In this document: positions 1,568 through 55,205 of the stretch, in pieces
Layout: every line of letters begins with the position of its first letter
Position numbering within the stretch: position 1 is the first letter of the stretch
Origin: Blastococcus sp. MG754426
GTDB lineage: Bacteria; Actinomycetota; Actinomycetes; Mycobacteriales; Geodermatophilaceae
NCBI RefSeq assembly: GCF_021699055.1
Contig: NZ_SSXC01000015.1
Span: 1 to 61,558 of the forward strand
Reading direction: 5' to 3'
DNA length: 61,558 nt
Made by a program: the position numbers and the translations under genes
Notes under the pieces: generated by a model
What the model was told of the DNA's origin: nothing
The model's database searches: none
Seen by the model: the letters and a program-made list of their open reading frames with translations, nothing else

Positions 1568-4025
1568 TCCGGCGTCCCGGATCCCCGGGGACGGGGAACC
1601 GCACACCGGGGCGGAGGGCTGGCTGCTGACCTACGAGGGGTACGACCCGGCGCAGGAAGCCCTCCGGGAGGTGCTCTGCGCGCTGGGCAACGGCCGGTTC
1701 GCCACCCGGGCCGCGGCACCCGAGAGCCGCGCCGACGGCGTCCACTACCCCGGGACGTACGCCGCCGGCGTGTTCGACCGGCTGGTCGACGAGGTCGACG
1801 GGCGGCAGGTGCCCAACGAGAGCATCGTCAACCTGCCCGACTGGCAGTCGCTGGCCTTCCGGCTCGGCGACGGCGGGTGGGTCGACCTCGCCGGTGCGGC
1901 CGTCTCCGGCTACGTCCAGGAGCTGGACCTGCGCCGGGGCGTCCTCACCAGGCGGTTCGTCGTCCAGGACGCCGAGGGCCGCCGCACCCGTGTCGCCCAG
2001 CGGCGGGTCGTCTCCATGGCCGCGCCCTGCCTGGCCGCCCTGGAGACGACCTTCCGCGCCGAGAACTGGTCGGGCACCGTGACCGTCCGCTCCGGCCTGG
2101 ACGGCCGGGTGCGCAACTGCGGGGTGGCCCGCTACCGGGGCCTCCGGGGGGACCACCTGCGGGTGGAGGAGACCTCCACCGAGGGCGGGCTGCTCGTGCT
2201 CGTCGCGGAGACCGTCCAGTCACGCGTGCGCGTCGCGCTCGCGGCGCGGCACCGGGTGCGCGTGGACGGCACCGAGCACCCGGTCACCACCCGGACCACC
2301 ACCCACGACGGCTACGTCGGCTGGGAGGCGGAGCTCTCCCTGCCCGACGGCGTGCCGGTCACCGTCGAGAAGACCGCGGCGCTGTGCACCTCGCGGGACC
2401 GCGGCGCGGGTGAACCGGGTGAGGCGGCGCGTGCCGAGCTGGACCGGGCCCCCGGTCTCCCAGAGGTGCTCGACGCCCACGTGCTCGCCTGGGCGCACCT
2501 GTGGCGGCGCTGCGACGTCGCCGTCACTGGCTCCCCCCGGACCTCGCTGGTGATCCGGCTGCACGTCTTCCACCTGCTGCAGACGATCTCCCCGCACAGC
2601 ATCGACCTGGACGTCGGCGTCCCGGCCCGGGGCCTGCACGGCGAGGCCTACCGGGGGCACGTCTTCTGGGACGAGATCCTGGTGCTGCCGTTCCTCAGCG
2701 TCCGGCTGCCCGAGGTCTCGCGCGCGATGCTGCTGTACCGCTGGCGCCGGCTCCCGCAGGCGCGGGCGGCCGCCCGCGCGATCGGCCGGCGGGGCGCGAT
2801 GTTCCCCTGGCAGAGCGGCTCCTCCGGCGACGAGGAGACCCAGCGGGTGCACCTGAACCCGCTCTCCGGCCGGTGGCTGGCCGACCGGTCGCACCTCCAA
2901 CGGCACGTGGGCCTGGCGGTCGCCTGCAACACCTGGCGCTACGTCGAGGCGACCGGCGACGAGGAGTTCCTGTCCTCCTACGGGGCCGAGCTGATCTGCG
3001 ACGTCGCCGCGTTCTGGGCCGACCTGGCCACCTACGACCGCACCGACGACCGGTACGACATCTGCGGTGTCATGGGCCCGGACGAGTACCACGACGCGCT
3101 GCCCTGGCGGGACACGCCGGGGCTCGACGACAACGCCTACACCAACGTCCTCGCCTCGTGGACCCTCACCCGGGCGCTCGAGTGCCTCGAACGGCTACCG
3201 GTCTGGCGGCGGGACGAGCTGCTGGACCTCCTCGGGCTCAGCCGGACCGATCTGGAGCACTGGGCGCACGTCAGCCGCCGGCTGCGGCTGTGCTGGCACG
3301 ACGACGGCGTGCTGAGCCAGTTCCGCGGCTACGAGGACCTCGCGGAGTTCGACTGGTCCGGCTACCGCCGCCGGTACGGGGACATCGGCCGGCTGGACCG
3401 CATCCTGGAGGCGGAGGGCGACACGACCAACCGCTACCGGGTGTCCAAGCAGGCCGACGTGCTCATGCTGTTCCAGCTCCTGCCGGCCGACGAGCTGTAC
3501 GCCGTGCTGGACCGGCTGGGGTACCGCTGGGACCGGCGGACGATCCCACGCACCGTGGCCTACTACCTGGCGCGGACGAGCCACGGCTCGACGCTGTCGA
3601 AGACGGTGCACTCCTGGGTGCTGGCCCGCAGCGACCGCCGCCGGGCGTGGACCTACTTCCTCGAGGCGCTGGACAGCGACATCACCGACGCCCAGGGCGG
3701 CACCACCGCCGAGGGCATCCACCTGGGAGCGATGGCGGGCACGGTCGACCTCCTGGTGCGCGGCTTCACCGGGCTGGAGACGCGGGGCGAGGCCCTGGGC
3801 TTCGACCCCTACCTCCCCGATGCACTTCACGAGCTGCGGTTCCGGCTGCGCTACCGCGACCACCCCGAGCTGGAGGTCGTGGTGGGGCACGACGCGCTGG
3901 TCGTGGGCGGCAGCTCCGCCCGTGCGACGACGCTGCCGGTGCGGGTGCGGGGCGGGGAGCACCGGATCGACCCGCGCGCCACCCTGGAGGTCCCGCTGCC
4001 CCGCCGGCGGGCCGACCGGCCCTGA
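1560..4025 (+). CDS. Glycoside hydrolase family 65 disaccharide phosphorylase
   Basis: An 821-residue cytosolic GH65 enzyme. Such enzymes split a disaccharide (maltose, trehalose, kojibiose or similar) with phosphate to give beta-glucose 1-phosphate and a sugar, saving ATP. The order is an N-terminal beta-sandwich (about 20-300), a helical linker, the (alpha/alpha)6 catalytic barrel (about 340-740) and a small C-terminal beta domain. Catalytic acid Glu509 lies in GPDEYHD; VSKQADVL and the phosphate-binding SHGSTLSKT (His675-Ser680) are present, which favours phosphorylase over hydrolase. Substrate cannot be told from sequence alone. The GTG at 1560 overlaps the upstream gene by 8 nt. Confidence 0.92.
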   Translation: MADPASRIPGDGEPHTGAEGWLLTYEGYDPAQEALREVLCALGNGRFATRAAAPESRADGVHYPGTYAAGVFDRLVDEVDGRQVPNESIVNLPDWQSLAFRLGDGGWVDLAGAAVSGYVQELDLRRGVLTRRFVVQDAEGRRTRVAQRRVVSMAAPCLAALETTFRAENWSGTVTVRSGLDGRVRNCGVARYRGLRGDHLRVEETSTEGGLLVLVAETVQSRVRVALAARHRVRVDGTEHPVTTRTTTHDGYVGWEAELSLPDGVPVTVEKTAALCTSRDRGAGEPGEAARAELDRAPGLPEVLDAHVLAWAHLWRRCDVAVTGSPRTSLVIRLHVFHLLQTISPHSIDLDVGVPARGLHGEAYRGHVFWDEILVLPFLSVRLPEVSRAMLLYRWRRLPQARAAARAIGRRGAMFPWQSGSSGDEETQRVHLNPLSGRWLADRSHLQRHVGLAVACNTWRYVEATGDEEFLSSYGAELICDVAAFWADLATYDRTDDRYDICGVMGPDEYHDALPWRDTPGLDDNAYTNVLASWTLTRALECLERLPVWRRDELLDLLGLSRTDLEHWAHVSRRLRLCWHDDGVLSQFRGYEDLAEFDWSGYRRRYGDIGRLDRILEAEGDTTNRYRVSKQADVLMLFQLLPADELYAVLDRLGYRWDRRTIPRTVAYYLARTSHGSTLSKTVHSWVLARSDRRRAWTYFLEALDSDITDAQGGTTAEGIHLGAMAGTVDLLVRGFTGLETRGEALGFDPYLPDALHELRFRLRYRDHPELEVVVGHDALVVGGSSARATTLPVRVRGGEHRIDPRATLEVPLPRRRADRP

Positions 4026-8666: not shown

Positions 8667-11512
8667 GGCGCCGGGTCCGCGAGGACTGGTGGGCGCAGGC
8701 CGACGTCGACCGGGCGCAGATCTTCGTGCCCGCCATCATCGGCGCCGGCATACTCGTCTCCGCCTTCACGCTGGTGCGCGACGCCCTGCACGGCCGCAAC
8801 CGGCGGGGGCGGGACCGGCGAACGTCGCTGCAGGGCCTGGCCACGGCGCACGGCGTCCGGACCGGCGACCCCCCGGAGGCCGCGCTCCCGGCCGGTCTCC
8901 GGCTCCGCGTCCACTACCTGCTGCTGGCCCTGAGCGCCGGCGCGCTGGCGGTCTACGGGGCCCGGGGCGCGACGAAGAACTACACCCAGGCCGCGGGCAT
9001 GTTCGGCGCCGGCGTGTCGTGGCTGTACGCCCTCCTCCTCCTCGCCGCCGGAGCGATGGCCGCCCTCGCCATCACCTCCCTGGTCCTCCTCGTCCGCTGG
9101 CCCGACGTCCCCGGGCCGGTCCGGCCGCTGCTGGTCAGCACCCCGCTCGGCCGGCGGCCGCCGGCACCGGGCGCCCCGTCCGGGCTCGGGGTGCTGCTGC
9201 TCGGCTGGGCCGCGGTGCTCACCGGCGCCGCCGCGGCCCAGTTCACCTTCACCGTCGCGGGGGCACCCCAGCTGCTCGAGGGGGTGGACGAGACCGTGCC
9301 GGAGCTGCCCGGGTGGACAGGGCTGCCCCTGGAGCTGGTCGGCACGGTGCCTGTCGCCGTCGCGCTGTCGGTCCTGGTCGGCCTGCTCACCCGGCGCTGC
9401 CCGCCGTTCGCGCTCGGGCAGCTGACCGTGGTGGGCCTCTCCCTGGGGGCGCACCTGTGGTTCACCGACGCGGTGGAACGCGCCCACCCGCCCGACGGCC
9501 CGCTCGCGGGCCTGCTCGACTCGCTGCCCAGCGGCCCCGCCCTGCAGGCGACGCTGCTGGCCGGGTTCGTCCCCCTCGCCGTCCACGTGCGCACCCGCCG
9601 GCGCGGGCCGGCGCTGGCCGTCCTCGGCGGCACCGCCGCGCTCCTGGCCGGCTACGCGGTCCAGCTCGTGCGCGACCGGCTCTACTGGCCCTCCGACGTC
9701 GGCGCCGGCGTGCTCATCGGCACGGCGCTGGTGCTCGGCACCTGGTGGGCGCTGGAACGGCGCGGGCTGCACCGGGACTGCAGCGGATGCCCGTGGCAGC
9801 CGGCCGGTGCCACCCCGACCCCGGGCCTGGTGAGCCTGGGGCCCGCGCGTGAGCGGACCGTCCGGCGCCTGGCCCGGGCGTGGCTGGCCGGGGCGCTGGC
9901 GTTGTTCGCCGTCCTCGCCCTGGTGGAGGGGCTGCCCACCAGCCCGGAGGGCGACACGATGGGTGCGGAGCTGTCCCGGACCCTCCAGCTCGGGCTGCTC
10001 GCGCTGGCCGCGGTGGGGCTGCTGGTGGCGCTGCGGTCCGAGGCCGTCGGCGCCCTGCTGGCCGCCGTCGCCGGCACGGCCCTGGGCATCTTCGCCGCCA
10101 TCACGTACCAGCCGTGGGTGAGCCTGCTCGTCGGTGCCGTCTTCCTGCTGCCGGCCGTCGGCTTCTGGCTGGTCTGGCAGCACCGCAGCTCGCTGCGGGC
10201 GGTGACCACCCTGGCGCTGGTGACCGCGCTGGTGCTCGGCGGCACCTACGGCGCCGCGGCGGCGGTGTACGAGCGGCTCTTCGGGCCGGCGCACCCCGTC
10301 TCCGCCACCCTGCCGCTCGAGGTGGACCGGGTGCTCTGGGCCTGGTCCGGCGGCGTGACCGGGCGGTCGGCACAGGTGGTCGCCGGCCTGGCGGACCCGT
10401 CCTCCACCGCCCGCCTGGCGGTGACCCCGGTCGACGGCGGCGCACCGCGGCGCTCCGCCGCCGTCGCCCCCACCGCACGCGGCGTCGTCCGGCTCGCCGT
10501 CGACGGCCTGTCGCCCGGCACGGCGTACCGCTGGACGGTCGAGGTCGACGGCCGGCCGGACGAGGGGCGCGGCCGGGGCGGCTTCCGGACCGTCCCCGAG
10601 GGCCCGGCGTCGTTCACCCTCGCGGTCGCCGGCTGCGCGCGCACCGGCTCCAGCGGGGCGGTGTTCGACGCGATCGCCCACGTCGACCCGCTGCTCTACC
10701 TCCAGACCGGCGACCTGCACTACGCGGACGTCTCCCGGGACGACGTCGGCGCCTTCGGCGACCGGTACGAGGACGTGCTCACCGCCCCGGCCCAGGCGGC
10801 GCTGTACCGCGAGGTCCCGGTGGCGTACGTGTGGGGTGACCACGACTTCGGCGGGGACGGGTCCGACGCCTCCTCCCCCGTCGGGCCGGCCGCGCGGCAG
10901 GCCTACCGCGAGTACGCGCCGCACCACCCCCTGCCGGACGAGGGCGCCGTGTACCAGGCCTTCACCGTGGGCCGGGTACGCGTCGTCATGACCGACACCC
11001 GGTCCGAGCGCACCGCGACCTCGATGCTCGGCGCCGAGCAGAAGGCCTGGCTGGCCGACGAGCTGGTGCGCGCCGCGCGCACCCACGCGGTCGTGCTCTG
11101 GGTGAACCCCGACCCGTGGGTGGCGCCGGCCGGACCCGGCCGGGACGACTGGGGCGGCTACGCCGACGAGCGGCGCGAGCTGGCCGACGTCGTCGCCGGT
11201 GCGGGCATCGACAACCTCGTCATGCTGTCGGGGGACGCGCACATGGTCGCCGTCGACGACGGCACCCACACCGGCTACGCCACCGCGGGCGGGCCGGGGT
11301 TCCCGCTGCTGCACGCGGCGGCGCTGGACCGCCCGGGCTCGGTCAAGGGTGGGCCGTACAGCGAGGGCGCCTTCCCGGGGGCCGGCCAGTTCGGCACGGT
11401 CGCGGTGGCGGACGACGGCGGGCCCACGGTGACCGTCACCCTCGCGGGCTGGACGTGGGAGGGCGAGCAGCTGGTCTCGCACACCGTGACGGTGGCCGCG
11501 CCGCCCGGCTGA
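8663..11512 (+). CDS. Membrane protein: degenerate PAP2-like region fused to PhoD-like metallophosphoesterase
   Basis: A 949-residue fusion. Residues 1-540 hold about twelve hydrophobic helices. Within them LPSGPALQATLLAGF (Pro289-Gly291) and LYWPSDVGAGVLIG look like PAP2 motifs 2 and 3 in which the catalytic histidines are gone (PSGP for PSGH). Residues about 545-645 form a fibronectin-like N-terminal PhoD domain. Residues about 650-949 are a metallophosphoesterase of the PhoD type, with metal-site motifs GDLHYAD (683-689), VWGDHDFGGDG and MLSGDAHM. PhoD enzymes hydrolyse phosphodiesters or monoesters outside the membrane, usually with iron and calcium; here the domain is tethered by the membrane part. 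The GTG at 8663 overlaps the dikinase stop by 4 nt. Confidence 0.8.
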   Translation: MRRRVREDWWAQADVDRAQIFVPAIIGAGILVSAFTLVRDALHGRNRRGRDRRTSLQGLATAHGVRTGDPPEAALPAGLRLRVHYLLLALSAGALAVYGARGATKNYTQAAGMFGAGVSWLYALLLLAAGAMAALAITSLVLLVRWPDVPGPVRPLLVSTPLGRRPPAPGAPSGLGVLLLGWAAVLTGAAAAQFTFTVAGAPQLLEGVDETVPELPGWTGLPLELVGTVPVAVALSVLVGLLTRRCPPFALGQLTVVGLSLGAHLWFTDAVERAHPPDGPLAGLLDSLPSGPALQATLLAGFVPLAVHVRTRRRGPALAVLGGTAALLAGYAVQLVRDRLYWPSDVGAGVLIGTALVLGTWWALERRGLHRDCSGCPWQPAGATPTPGLVSLGPARERTVRRLARAWLAGALALFAVLALVEGLPTSPEGDTMGAELSRTLQLGLLALAAVGLLVALRSEAVGALLAAVAGTALGIFAAITYQPWVSLLVGAVFLLPAVGFWLVWQHRSSLRAVTTLALVTALVLGGTYGAAAAVYERLFGPAHPVSATLPLEVDRVLWAWSGGVTGRSAQVVAGLADPSSTARLAVTPVDGGAPRRSAAVAPTARGVVRLAVDGLSPGTAYRWTVEVDGRPDEGRGRGGFRTVPEGPASFTLAVAGCARTGSSGAVFDAIAHVDPLLYLQTGDLHYADVSRDDVGAFGDRYEDVLTAPAQAALYREVPVAYVWGDHDFGGDGSDASSPVGPAARQAYREYAPHHPLPDEGAVYQAFTVGRVRVVMTDTRSERTATSMLGAEQKAWLADELVRAARTHAVVLWVNPDPWVAPAGPGRDDWGGYADERRELADVVAGAGIDNLVMLSGDAHMVAVDDGTHTGYATAGGPGFPLLHAAALDRPGSVKGGPYSEGAFPGAGQFGTVAVADDGGPTVTVTLAGWTWEGEQLVSHTVTVAAPPG

Positions 11513-48761: not shown

Positions 48762-49364
48762 TCAGGCGGGCGGCACCTCGGCGCCGCGCGGCAGCCGGCC
48801 CATCAGGAAGAACTCGGGGTTCGGCGTGATCGCCGCGAAGTGCGCGAGCCGGTTGGAGAGCGCGAAGAACGACGTGATCATGCCGACGTCCCACACGTCG
48901 TCCTCGGTGAGCCCGTGCTCGGTGAGGGCGGCCAGGTCCGCGGCGGTGACCGAGGCCGGGTCGGCCGCCAGCCGGGTGGCCACCGCGAGGACGGCGTGCA
49001 TGCGCGGCGACAGCGGGGCCTTGCGCCAGTCCACGGCGACGTGGTCGGCGATGTGCGGGTCCTTGGTGCGGATGCGGGCCACCGCACCGTGCGCGACGAC
49101 GCAGTAGAGGCAGTCGTTGCCGGCGCTGGTCGCCACCACGATCAGCTCGCGGTCGGCCTTGGACAGCCCCGGGGTCTCCTTGTCCATGAGCGCGTCGTGC
49201 ATCGCGAAGAACGCCCGCGCCTCGTCCGGCCGCCAGGCCAGCGCGGCGAAGACGTTGGGCAGGAAGCCGGACCTCTCCCGGACCTCCGCGTAGCGCTCGG
49301 CGAGGTCCGGGGGCAGCTCGTCGGCGGGGCGGAGGGGGAAGCGGCTGATCGGCGTCTCGGTCAC
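48762..49364 (-). CDS. AhpD-like peroxidase-related protein (carboxymuconolactone decarboxylase fold)
   Basis: 200 residues of the uncharacterised peroxidase-related family. The redox centre is NDCLYCVVAHGA (C-x2-C-x3-H), as in AhpD, preceded by LSKADRELIVVATSAG; VWDVGMITSFFALSNRLAHF closes the domain. AhpD-type proteins use the CxxC pair and a thiol partner to reduce peroxides. The GTG at 49364 lies 31 nt after the UGSC gene, so it is the third gene of the operon 51308-48762. Its usual Cys pair contrasts with the Sec-like position in the UGSC protein. Confidence 0.87.
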   Translation of the reverse strand: MTETPISRFPLRPADELPPDLAERYAEVRERSGFLPNVFAALAWRPDEARAFFAMHDALMDKETPGLSKADRELIVVATSAGNDCLYCVVAHGAVARIRTKDPHIADHVAVDWRKAPLSPRMHAVLAVATRLAADPASVTAADLAALTEHGLTEDDVWDVGMITSFFALSNRLAHFAAITPNPEFFLMGRLPRGAEVPPA

Positions 49365-49395: not shown

Positions 49396-49914
49396 TCACC
49401 CCGCGGTGGTGACGGCGGCCAGCACCGCGGGGTAGGCCGCCTCGGCGGCCGCCCGGAGCTCCGCGTCGGTGCGGTCCTGCACCGGGTGGGGGACGAGCAC
49501 GCACGGCGCCGGGAAGCCCAGCGCGGTGCCCTGCGCGCGGGCCGCCTCGGCGAACGCCTCGCTGGCGAGGAACACCCCGACGACGCCGCGGCGCTCGAGG
49601 TCGGCGATGTCGTGCACACTGCACGACGTGCAGGAGCCCTAATCGGCCAGCGCCTCGATGACCACCTCGCACTGCTCGGCGATCTCGTGCCGCAGGTCCA
49701 CCGGGGCGGTCCGGGCGAAGGTCGGCTTGCGGTAGCGCCGCACGACCGCGCCGTCCGCGGCGAGCAGCTCGGCCAGCCGGTCCAGGACGACGTCGCCGCG
49801 TGCCTTGCTGATGTCGAGCAGCCCGACGCTCCGGCCGCGCAGCGAGGCCGGGCGGGGCAGCGGCTCGCGGGCGGCCGCCTGCCGCTCGCCGGTCGGGTCC
49901 AGGACCGTTCTCAT
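49396..49914 (-). CDS. UGSC-family selenoprotein with in-frame TAG as probable selenocysteine codon
   Basis: 172 residues if TAG (49639-49641) is read through; 91 if not. The first half (LLDISKARGDVVLDRLAELL ... CEVVIEALAD) ends exactly where the family motif U/C-G-S-C begins. The codon there is TAG, followed in frame by GSCTSCSVHDIADLERRG, a conserved domain with PAPCVLVPHPVQD, and TGA at 49396. Sec would be residue 92, with Cys95 and Cys98 nearby. A SECIS-like hairpin lies at 49609-49627. The ATG at 49914 overlaps the thioredoxin-like stop by 4 nt. The UGSC family is known with Sec or Cys. Alternatives are a nonsense mutation or a base error; a TGC or TGT Cys codon would need two changes, TGA only one. 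Confidence 0.82.
49609..49627 (-). promoter_or_regulatory. SECIS-like hairpin downstream of the TAG
   Basis: On the minus strand GTCGTGC-AGTGT-GCACGAC forms a perfect 7-bp stem (8 with the closing A-T), beginning 11 nt after the TAG, with the apical loop starting 19 nt after it and a G in the second loop position. Bacterial SECIS elements have the loop 16-37 nt after the codon and a G among the first two loop bases. A competing stem, CTGCAC-GTC-GTGCAG, overlaps it. Confidence 0.6.
49639..49641 (-). other. In-frame TAG recoding site (probable UAG selenocysteine codon)
   Basis: The plus strand reads CTA. It sits at the exact U/C position of the UGSC motif. UAG-directed Sec insertion has been reported for Geodermatophilus and Blastococcus, where tRNA-Sec carries a matching anticodon. 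No selA, selB, selD or tRNA-Sec gene is in this window, so the machinery cannot be confirmed here. Confidence 0.75.
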
Positions 49915-51308
49915 GCGCGCACCTCTCTCGTCACCGGGGCGCTCCCGGTCTGACCGGCCACCCAGCCTCCCACGATCGCGCTGAACAACCCGGCGTCGCC
50001 GCCGGCGTGCGCGACCAGCAGACCACCGGGCCGGAACTTCGGCAGCTCCGCCCCCGCCAGGCCGGCGGGCACCCCCTCGGCCATGCCGCCCGCCCCGCGC
50101 ACCAGCTCCGCGCCGGGCAGGGTCAGCAGCTCCTCCAGCTCGGCCAGCAGGCGGGCCCGGTCCCACCCCGCCTCGCGGAACACCCGGCCGTGCTCGGGTG
50201 AGACCACGAGCATCGCGTCGAAGGCCATCGGCAGCTTGGGGTGGGCGTTGACGCGCAGGCAGGCGGCGAAGGTCCGCGCCAGCGACGCCGGGTCGCGGCT
50301 GAGCTGGTCGACCACCGGCTGAACGCCCGACCCCGCGAACACGGTCACCGCGTCGCCGGGCACCCCGCGGTCGGCGGCCAGCGGCGGGAACGGGCTGTCG
50401 TGCTCGCGCTCGGCGAAGCAGAAGGTGAACTTGCCGGGGTTGCCCAGGGTCGCCCGGTCCACCTCGCCGGGGCGCCCGCCGCCGACGTTGCGGACCACCA
50501 GCTGCAGCGCCCGGCCGATCGTGGCGTTGGCGCGGTTGCCCTGCCCCAGGGCGTTGACCCCGCCGTTCATGCCGATCCGCGCGGCGACCGGCCCGTTGAC
50601 CACCACCACCGGCCCGGCGAAGTACGTCGTCGCCAGCAGCCCGTGCAGCGCGAACTCCTCGGCGGCGGCCGCCTCCAGGGCGGCCAGCACCACCGGCAGG
50701 TGCTCGGGCAGGCACCCGGCCATGACGGCGTTGACGGCCACCTTCTCGACGGTGCACTCGACCAGATCGGGCGGGACGACGGCGACCACCTCGCCCGGGT
50801 CGCGGGTGGTGCCGCGCAGCATCCGCAGCACCCGCTCCGGCGTCGGCGGCACCACGGGCAGCCCGTCGGTCCAGCCCCGGTCGAACAGCGCCTCGTGCTC
50901 GTCCTCGAGCTCGGCGAGCTCGATCCGCCGGCTGACCAGCCCGGTGCCGCCGTACCGCGCCTCCAGTGCGTCGATGCGGAACGGGTCCACCGACAGCGAG
51001 CCGCAGCCCGGCCGGTGCTCGGGCAGCCCCTCCCCCAGGTCGGCGACGCCGGTGAGCTCGGCCCACTGCTCCCGGCTCCACCCGACCACCCGGGCGGTCT
51101 CGGCGCCGTCGACCACCCGCAGCAGCGTCGGGACGGTCTCGATGCCCAGCCGGTAGGAGAGCTCCAGCTCGGTGTCGTCGCCGTCGAACCACCCGGCGTC
51201 GTCCTGGCACCACACGGCGGCGCCGAGCCGCCGCAGCACCGGCTCCACGAGCACGCAGGTGGGGCAGTCGCGCTTGACCACGGCCACGAGACCGTCCGGG
51301 AGCTGCAC
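49911..51308 (-). CDS. Thioredoxin-like protein with large C-terminal domain of unknown function
   Basis: About 465 residues. The N-terminal domain (1-80) is thioredoxin-like with the redox pair in VVKRDCPTCVLVEPVL (Cys15, Cys18) and the cis-Pro segment IETVPTLLRV. The rest (about 130-465), beginning near WTDGLPVVPPTPERVLRML, is a conserved domain I cannot name; it has NGGVNALGQGNRANATIGR and LPMAFDAMLVVSPEH. It is the first gene of the operon with the UGSC and AhpD-like genes and may supply electrons to the Sec residue (inference). The start is uncertain: GTG 51308 gives a compact thioredoxin domain, GTG 51353 adds 15 residues. Confidence 0.75.
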   Translation of the reverse strand: MQLPDGLVAVVKRDCPTCVLVEPVLRRLGAAVWCQDDAGWFDGDDTELELSYRLGIETVPTLLRVVDGAETARVVGWSREQWAELTGVADLGEGLPEHRPGCGSLSVDPFRIDALEARYGGTGLVSRRIELAELEDEHEALFDRGWTDGLPVVPPTPERVLRMLRGTTRDPGEVVAVVPPDLVECTVEKVAVNAVMAGCLPEHLPVVLAALEAAAAEEFALHGLLATTYFAGPVVVVNGPVAARIGMNGGVNALGQGNRANATIGRALQLVVRNVGGGRPGEVDRATLGNPGKFTFCFAEREHDSPFPPLAADRGVPGDAVTVFAGSGVQPVVDQLSRDPASLARTFAACLRVNAHPKLPMAFDAMLVVSPEHGRVFREAGWDRARLLAELEELLTLPGAELVRGAGGMAEGVPAGLAGAELPKFRPGGLLVAHAGGDAGLFSAIVGGWVAGQTGSAPVTREVRA

Positions 51309-51414
51309 GGCGCGACCGTACCCACCCCGCCCGCCGGCCGTGACGGCGGTCACCGCGGCGCGTCCCGGTGCGGCGGCCCCGGCCGGGACGGCCCCGGCCG
51401 GCCCGGGGGCCCGT

Positions 51415-54245: not shown

Positions 54246-55205
54246 ATGAGCACCGCGACCCGGCTCGATGGCCCTGCCGAGGCCACCGACGGCGCCCCGC
54301 GCCCGCACCCGAACGTCTCCGGCGACCTGCCGACGCTGTTCCGGGCGGCGCCGATGTTCCGCCGGGCACTGGCCGGCTACGACCGCTTCCAGGTCGACAC
54401 CTACGTCCAGTGGGCGGAGGACGAGCTGGCGACGGCGGAGCGCGAGCGGGAGCACCTGCTGGACCGCTGCCTGCAGACCCGGACCGCCCTGGACGAGGCG
54501 CACCGGCTGCTCGACCACTCCGCGGGCGGCGGTGAGCTGCTGCGGCTCTCCGGGCGGATCGGCTCGATGCTCGCCGCCGCGGCCGACGAGGCGCAGGGCA
54601 TGACCGCCGAGGCCGAGCAGCTCCGCGCGGCTGCCCGGGCCGAGGCCGAGGAGCTGCGCGCCCGCGCCGCCGACGAGCTGGCCCGCGCCCGCGCCGGCGC
54701 CCGCGAGACCGCGGCCGCCGCCACCGCCCGGGCCGGGATGCTGCTCACCGTCGTGGGACGCACCCTCGACGCCGCCGAGCAGATCCGCGCCGACGCGGTC
54801 GCCGAGGCCGAGCGCCGCGGAGCCGAGGCGCACGAGGTGGAGCAGCGCGCGGCCGAGCGGGCGGCCCGGTTCGCGGAGGAGGCCGCCGCCGAGGTGGCCC
54901 GCGGCCGGCTGCAGGGCCACGCGGAGGTCCTCCGCGTGCTGGAGGCCGGCCGGGAGCAGCGGCGCCGGGCGGACGCCGAAGCGGCAGCCCACCGCGAGCG
55001 CCTGGACCGGGAGGCCGCCGACCGGCGGGCGGCCCTGCTCGCGGAGGTCGCCGCCCTCGAGCACCGCCGGGCCGAGCTCGCCGCGGAGGTCGAGCGCGCG
55101 GCCCGCACCGTGCCGCCCCGGGCCGACGACCCGGCGGCCGGGACGAGCGGCCGGTTCCGCGACCGCGTCCGCCGCCTCCGGTCCCCGCGGGCGGGCACCG
55201 CCTAG
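54246..55205 (+). CDS. DivIVA-like coiled-coil protein
   Basis: 319 residues. The N-terminal part has MFRRALAGYDRFQVDTYVQW (about 37-56), the DivIVA/Wag31-type lipid-binding start (GYDxxxVDxYL). Residues about 60-295 are a nearly unbroken Ala/Glu/Arg-rich coiled coil. The C-terminus is basic (RDRVRRLRSPR). DivIVA relatives mark poles or septa and organise wall growth or chromosome partition. The ATG at 54246 has a strong GGGAGGAGG. It is one of three genes here that end in TAG; there is no Sec-like motif or conserved extension after it. Confidence 0.75.
   Translation: MSTATRLDGPAEATDGAPRPHPNVSGDLPTLFRAAPMFRRALAGYDRFQVDTYVQWAEDELATAEREREHLLDRCLQTRTALDEAHRLLDHSAGGGELLRLSGRIGSMLAAAADEAQGMTAEAEQLRAAARAEAEELRARAADELARARAGARETAAAATARAGMLLTVVGRTLDAAEQIRADAVAEAERRGAEAHEVEQRAAERAARFAEEAAAEVARGRLQGHAEVLRVLEAGREQRRRADAEAAAHRERLDREAADRRAALLAEVAALEHRRAELAAEVERAARTVPPRADDPAAGTSGRFRDRVRRLRSPRAGTA

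Follow-up and report, generated by a model that had tools for sequence, protein, structure and literature searches.

The reading of UAG as selenocysteine (Sec) in the Geodermatophilaceae is already known, having been reported in 2016. According to excerpts of a citing paper, Mukai et al. (2016) reported that FDH and UGSC selenoproteins of this family are encoded with UAG; the citing paper adds AhpC of B. saxobsidens as a further UAG-coded selenoprotein (PMC5330540), and an excerpt of another paper also describes this UAG-directed Sec system (PMC10778597). The UGSC-containing selenoprotein family itself (NF041046, PF24696) was described in ocean metagenomes (PMC2398784). Excerpts of the literature further describe an engineered case of combined UGA and UAG use for Sec (PMC9902344), and some genomes, including eight from bacteria, are known to possess two tRNA-Sec genes (PMC5330540). 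In the excerpts of the latter paper there was no mention of two different anticodons among such genomes, and no natural bacterium using both UGA and UAG for Sec was found among the papers listed in searches of the open-licence literature.

The stretch of DNA analyzed here (the window, 61,558 nucleotides) is an entire contig of a 4.71-Mb genome that is 99.99% complete in 224 contigs, and it almost certainly carries a native UAG-coded selenoprotein gene of a Blastococcus species. Judged by the relatives found, the bacterium belongs to the family in which the known system was reported, the Geodermatophilaceae, and it shares with that system the tRNA-Sec(CUA) and both selenoprotein families, FDH and UGSC; it is a different Blastococcus strain, and no other difference was found from that system as citing papers describe it in part. 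The protein is a UGSC member by both family models and has the identical Sec site, whereas its codon is UAG and not the UGA of the family as presented in the excerpted description. With the standard UGA system based on SelB and SECIS, the locus shares the three sel genes (selA, selB, and selD), a tRNA-Sec, and a stem-loop shortly after the codon, but the anticodon here is CUA and the codon UAG; therefore, the competing factor should be release factor 1 (RF1) rather than RF2.

Results

An in-frame TAG at the Sec site of a UGSC-family gene

The UGSC-family gene occupies positions 49396..49914 of the minus strand. Its product would have 172 residues, the 92nd being Sec, and the reading frame closes on TGA. 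The earlier note had given these positions correctly but had left the strand unsaid. Both profile libraries recognized the protein when C was put in place of Sec (NF041046, 145.7 bits with a cut-off of 125; PF24696, 147.7 bits with a cut-off of 25). The ATG at 49914..49912 overlaps the stop of the upstream gene as ATGA. The TAG at 49641..49639 (minus strand) falls at residue 92 of 172, in the motif EALAD-TAG-GSCTSCSVHD, and is followed by 80 sense codons and TGA. The letters thus confirmed both that the TAG stands at the U/C position of the UGSC motif and that the frame stays open for 80 residues.

A crude gene finder split the gene in two, as had been predicted of ordinary annotation. It called 50 ORFs in the window, which ended on TGA in 46 cases, on TAG in four (one being the TAG of the UGSC gene), and on TAA in none; the earlier count of 48 TGA, 3 TAG, and 0 TAA among 51 genes was therefore close but differs from the recount. 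At 55203 and 58098, the window has two further candidates for TAG read-through, which were rejected because reading them revealed no Sec-like motif.

The codon at residue 92 in relatives and translation beyond the TAG

The assignment of 49639..49641 (minus strand) as a Sec codon, the U of UGSC, comes from the comparison of codons across relatives. We surveyed 112 genomes of the family, 54 of which had a UGSC match at E 1e-8 or better, and TAG was present in 36/36 matches of at least 70% identity. All of these close genes come from one family, and they are therefore not 36 independent events. The 58 weaker matches in the family comprised, as counted in the table, 36 with one TAG, 22 without a stop, and none with TGA. 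Ten of the one-TAG matches were read and had the TAG at the Sec site, and two of the stopless ones, when read, had TGC in a CAGC motif. An extra TGA that appeared in one genome (G025, L053) turned out to be the stop of that gene itself, lying two codons earlier. The genome of the window has a second UGSC gene (L072, contig C175, match 3046-3495), also with TAG at the Sec site.

The alignment of homologues that the earlier note had proposed gave a clear division. Of 304 named relatives, the best 80 were read, the closest being Blastococcus sp. KM273128 (97% identity in the UGSC protein); 21 of the 80 had TAG, all of them Blastococcus or Geodermatophilus, and TGA occupied the site in 59/59 of those outside these two genera, at 56-78% identity. 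Altogether 128 loci were read (67 TAG, 59 TGA, and 2 TGC), the named and unnamed loci overlapping because they derive partly from the same genomes. The U position of the motif is thus filled by TAG, TGA, or TGC in relatives, and by TAG here, in a genome with tRNA-Sec(CUA).

No gaps interrupt the alignment of the 36 close genes in its first 170 codons. These genes extend 78-94 codons past the TAG, ending on TGA in 30 cases and on TAG in six. In these genes, dN/dS was 0.324 before the TAG and 0.273 in the 70 codons after it, falling to 0.059 in the first 20 codons after it. Synonymous conservation at codons +1..+16 ranked 11th of the 151 windows compared, which is suggestive only.

The TAG could in principle be a genuine terminator or an artifact of sequencing, the gene being broken or in fact two genes, as the split made by an ordinary gene finder would have it. 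This is very improbable, since the identical TAG stands at the identical residue in 36/36 close matches from separate genomes, purifying selection persists after it, and TGA takes its place in the 59 named relatives (among the best 80 of 304).

A conserved hairpin downstream of the TAG

Bacterial SECIS elements consist of a stem-loop at a suitable distance from the Sec codon, and the loop contains a conserved G. A SECIS-like hairpin of the bacterial kind, with 8 bp and a GUG loop, lies at 49609..49627 on the minus strand. It reads GUCGUGCA-GUG-UGCACGAC (49627..49609) and has its first base 14 positions past the TAG's own T, so that both a stem-loop at suitable distance and the conserved loop G were found. 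The expectation of a hairpin at the place of a bacterial SECIS was borne out by its conservation just past the TAG and by paired changes.

In 30 distinct 36-mers from 126 TAG or TGA loci, 95.8% of the stem cells were paired, as compared with 8-58% in controls where one side was slid by 1-3 bases. Changes on both sides were seen in four inner pairs (G-C to A-T, T-A to G-C, G-C to C-G, and C-G to G-C), and the two outermost pairs were broken in 4 and 6 of the 30 distinct sequences. In all 30, the loop together with its closing pair has the letters AGTGT, AGTTT, or AGTCT. The closing A and the first two loop bases form an AGT serine codon, which was present at 126/126 TAG or TGA loci; elsewhere in the 36 genes, AGT accounted for 2/174 serine codons.

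The folding energy of the hairpin was no better than that of shuffled sequences at any of the three lengths (z -0.53, +0.79, and -0.30), and unusual folding stability was thus not found. To our knowledge, such stability is not a requirement for SECIS elements. Since the folding energy is uninformative, the case for the hairpin rests on conservation and paired changes. When the sequence of the window was recoded synonymously at random, all 8/8 pairs arose in 634/20000 draws, and 14 of those also retained AGT. For a paralogue (L079), 6/8 pairs were reached in 4276/20000 recodings, showing that the pairs alone are not unusual. We infer that SelB would bind this putative SECIS.

A reassignment or suppression of UAG throughout the genome, independent of any SECIS, would suit the rarity of TAG as a stop in the window. 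Such a reading is extremely improbable: TAG terminates three other predicted genes of the window as well as selB of the genome, the hairpin is conserved, and in 6/36 genes of the family TAG serves both as the Sec codon and as the gene's own stop. A single message can hence use UAG in both roles, and the recoding must depend on context.

The Sec machinery of the genome

The search for a tRNA-Sec with a CUA anticodon, called for in the earlier note, was successful. The tRNA (C113:36447-36538) scored 67.7 bits with RF01852, has the anticodon CTA (CUA), and is the sole tRNA-Sec found in the genome. RF01852 matched nine places at E 0.001, two of them above the cut-off, namely tRNA-Sec(CUA) and tRNA-Ser(tga); four of the seven weaker places were read and proved to be tRNA-Ser, -Tyr, or -Leu. 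The selA, selB, and selD genes, also sought on that suggestion, were all present above their NCBIfam cut-offs (421.0, 290.2, and 392.7 bits, respectively) and adjoin the tRNA, selA and selB following it and selD lying on its opposite side.

ARAGORN labels this tRNA ‘tRNA-Pyl’, but that label alone speaks for UAG encoding pyrrolysine, which is extremely improbable, as the tRNA fits the RF01852 tRNA-Sec model over positions 1 to 91 and adjoins selA, PylS did not pass its cut-off in this 99.99%-complete genome (best 20.2 bits against 178.15; 1/14 control genomes was above it), and the TAG stands where UGSC proteins have Sec or Cys.

In the same ARAGORN output for the window, a tRNA-Pro(ggg) at 9740-9827 on the plus strand has 88 bases, which is long for tRNA-Pro, and may be a false call.

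The genome also has two FDH genes (contigs C158 and C1) with an in-frame TAG (L200:1419, plus strand; L201:3150, minus strand) and a hairpin after it. Translated through the TAG, they scored 1911.7 and 1981.9 bits with NF041513 (cut-off 1400). TIGR01591 matched these genes in pieces only and below its cut-off, and their identity was settled with NCBIfam, using the proteins translated through the TAG. In G072, a genome with the UCA anticodon, an FDH-like gene has, by reading and not by alignment, TGA before a similar histidine-led motif. The only tRNA-Sec found being CUA, the three sel genes, and FDH genes with in-frame UAG are all features of the known UAG-Sec system.

The anticodon follows the codon in relatives. 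The tRNA-Sec(CUA) pattern matched all 36 genomes with a UGSC gene of at least 70% identity and, in the whole family, 101/112 genomes and 9/12 genera. The 11 genomes without it were nine of genera g5-g7, where tRNA-Sec was found in 7/9 genomes and was UCA in 7/7, and two incomplete g9 genomes, in which there was no tRNA-Sec match at all. Sixteen genomes were checked through the named loci, representing 14 of the 59 TGA loci and 2 of the 21 TAG loci among the best 80 of 304. tRNA-Sec was found in 13/16 and had UCA in 11/11 TGA genomes and CUA in 2/2 TAG genomes; none was found in 3/16, including the genome of the nearest TGA relative (L104) among those 80.

A sample of 397 genomes from the order yielded the CUA pattern in 77, of which 75 belong to the family. 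The other two are G230 and G280. In G230, a draft genome from another family of the order, the tRNA-Sec(CUA) (L206, G230:C194:1-3000) is likely mis-binned. It lies on a 4.8-kb contig together with a SelA piece truncated by the end of that contig, and the assembly (82% complete, contamination 3%) contains another, full SelA. The match in G280 looks, from its letters, like chance.

None of the three observations that the earlier note had named as contrary to its reading (a genome lacking Sec genes, a tRNA-Sec with a UCA anticodon only, or a sense codon at 49639-49641) was seen, the last being judged by the 36 matches in separate genomes.

Partner gene, neighbors, and predicted fold

The upstream gene whose stop overlaps the UGSC start as ATGA (49911..51353, minus strand) encodes 480 residues with a thioredoxin-like N-terminus (CPTC). 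Its match to PF13098 (20.8 bits) is below the cut-off of 27, and it has no NCBIfam name. A gene corresponding to its C-terminal part lies beside UGSC in the same orientation at 57/57 TAG loci and 52/59 TGA loci (overlapping named and unnamed loci, the TGA ones from the best 80 of 304), and the 480-residue protein is a probable functional partner of the UGSC protein. The gene also adjoins UGSC in MAGs labeled Anaerolineales (L141) and Gammaproteobacteria (L139).

On the other side, a peroxidase-related (CMD/AhpD-like) gene with Cys lies at 48762..49364 on the minus strand (TIGR01926, 182.1 bits at 48762-49337, cut-off 81.8). Such a neighbor occurs near UGSC at 5/57 TAG loci and 0/59 TGA loci (the latter from the best 80 of 304), and since it is so seldom there, it probably stands outside the UGSC unit.

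A fold model of the UGSC protein with C for Sec (pLDDT 92.8) has five alternating strands and helices; residue 92 immediately precedes the helix 93-108. There was no solved structure matching by sequence at E 0.01. Fold matches in the PDB were weak (four at E <=0.001; among the 50 matches listed, the highest TM by length of the query was 0.54), with a flavodoxin among the first. The fold is most likely Rossmann/flavodoxin-like, with Sec standing where a helix begins, and the protein most likely carries out a thiol/selenol redox step together with the thioredoxin-like product of the upstream gene.

A possible two-codon genome

Geodermatophilus sp. LHW52908 (G058) may use UAG and UGA for Sec at once, through a native UAG code and an imported island on contig C17, a tentative reading to which we give somewhat less than even chances. 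Contig C11 has tRNA-Sec(CUA), SelA, selB (268.8 bits), and selD (379.8), and the genome has UAG in its UGSC and FDH genes. A tRNA-Sec(UCA) is found at C17:1173-1263 on the minus strand, approximately 300 bases from an AhpD-like gene at 1579-2157 on the plus strand of L070 (G058:C17:1-20000). That gene has TGA at the U of a CFYU motif, followed by a 7-bp hairpin of ordinary energy. It scored 112.6 bits with TIGR01926 (cut-off 81.8), and only 51.7 with the selenoprotein model NF041238 (cut-off 175).

A search with the AhpD-like protein gave 39 matches in 396 genomes of the phylum, from which 20 loci were fetched. Together with G058, the codon at the Sec site of CFYU was TGA in 14, TGC in 6, and TGT in 1 of 21. 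G058 alone had the TGA form among the six family genomes with a match at E 1e-20. The island has approximately 60% GC, as compared with 75-77% in the far parts of the contig, and transposase-like genes surround it, as judged by reading. One SelA was found in G058, beside the CUA tRNA, and the island would have to borrow SelA, SelB, and SelD from the host. The assembly is a draft with contamination given as 1%, and the island lies where its contig ends, which tempers the reading of two codons in one genome.

Within the transposase-like region of L070, at 9125-9253 on the minus strand, there is an ALIL pseudoknot (RF01497, 65.8 bits), which we take to be an insertion-sequence frameshift signal. 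Elsewhere, plasmid-borne selB, selA, and selD surround a tRNA-Sec-like match in Arthrobacter pYA7-1a (L237) and Tsukamurella tyrosinosolvens plasmid 17 (L238), where formate dehydrogenase genes lie next to them.

Discussion

At the level of sequence, the gene is supported as a native UAG selenoprotein by an open frame containing the TAG, by the matching tRNA-Sec(CUA) together with selA, selB, and selD, by the swap of codon and anticodon between relatives with TAG and TGA at the homologous position, and by the conserved hairpin. From what is established for the pathway, SerRS would charge the CUA-anticodon tRNA-Sec with serine, which SelA would turn into Sec using the selenophosphate of SelD. 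SelB would then deliver the Sec-tRNA to the ribosome on meeting the hairpin just past the UAG, where the Sec-tRNA would outcompete RF1 at this UAG codon only, and Sec would thus be inserted at residue 92. In the proteins of Mukai et al., Sec was reportedly proved in 2016 by 75Se or mass spectrometry.

The earlier note had further proposed that UAG is used as a way to avoid the dominant UGA stop. This is weak as an explanation, because 59 named relatives among the best 80 (of 304), many of them labeled Actinomycetota, retain UGA.

The results confirm a natural move of the Sec codon from UGA to UAG, in which codon and anticodon changed together. The move matters for annotation, because such genes get split and the tRNA is mislabeled tRNA-Pyl. 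Genes with UAG both as Sec codon and as stop would suit as reporters of SECIS-dependent recoding, and the two-codon genome of Geodermatophilus sp. LHW52908, if true, would show how the old and the new Sec codon can coexist.
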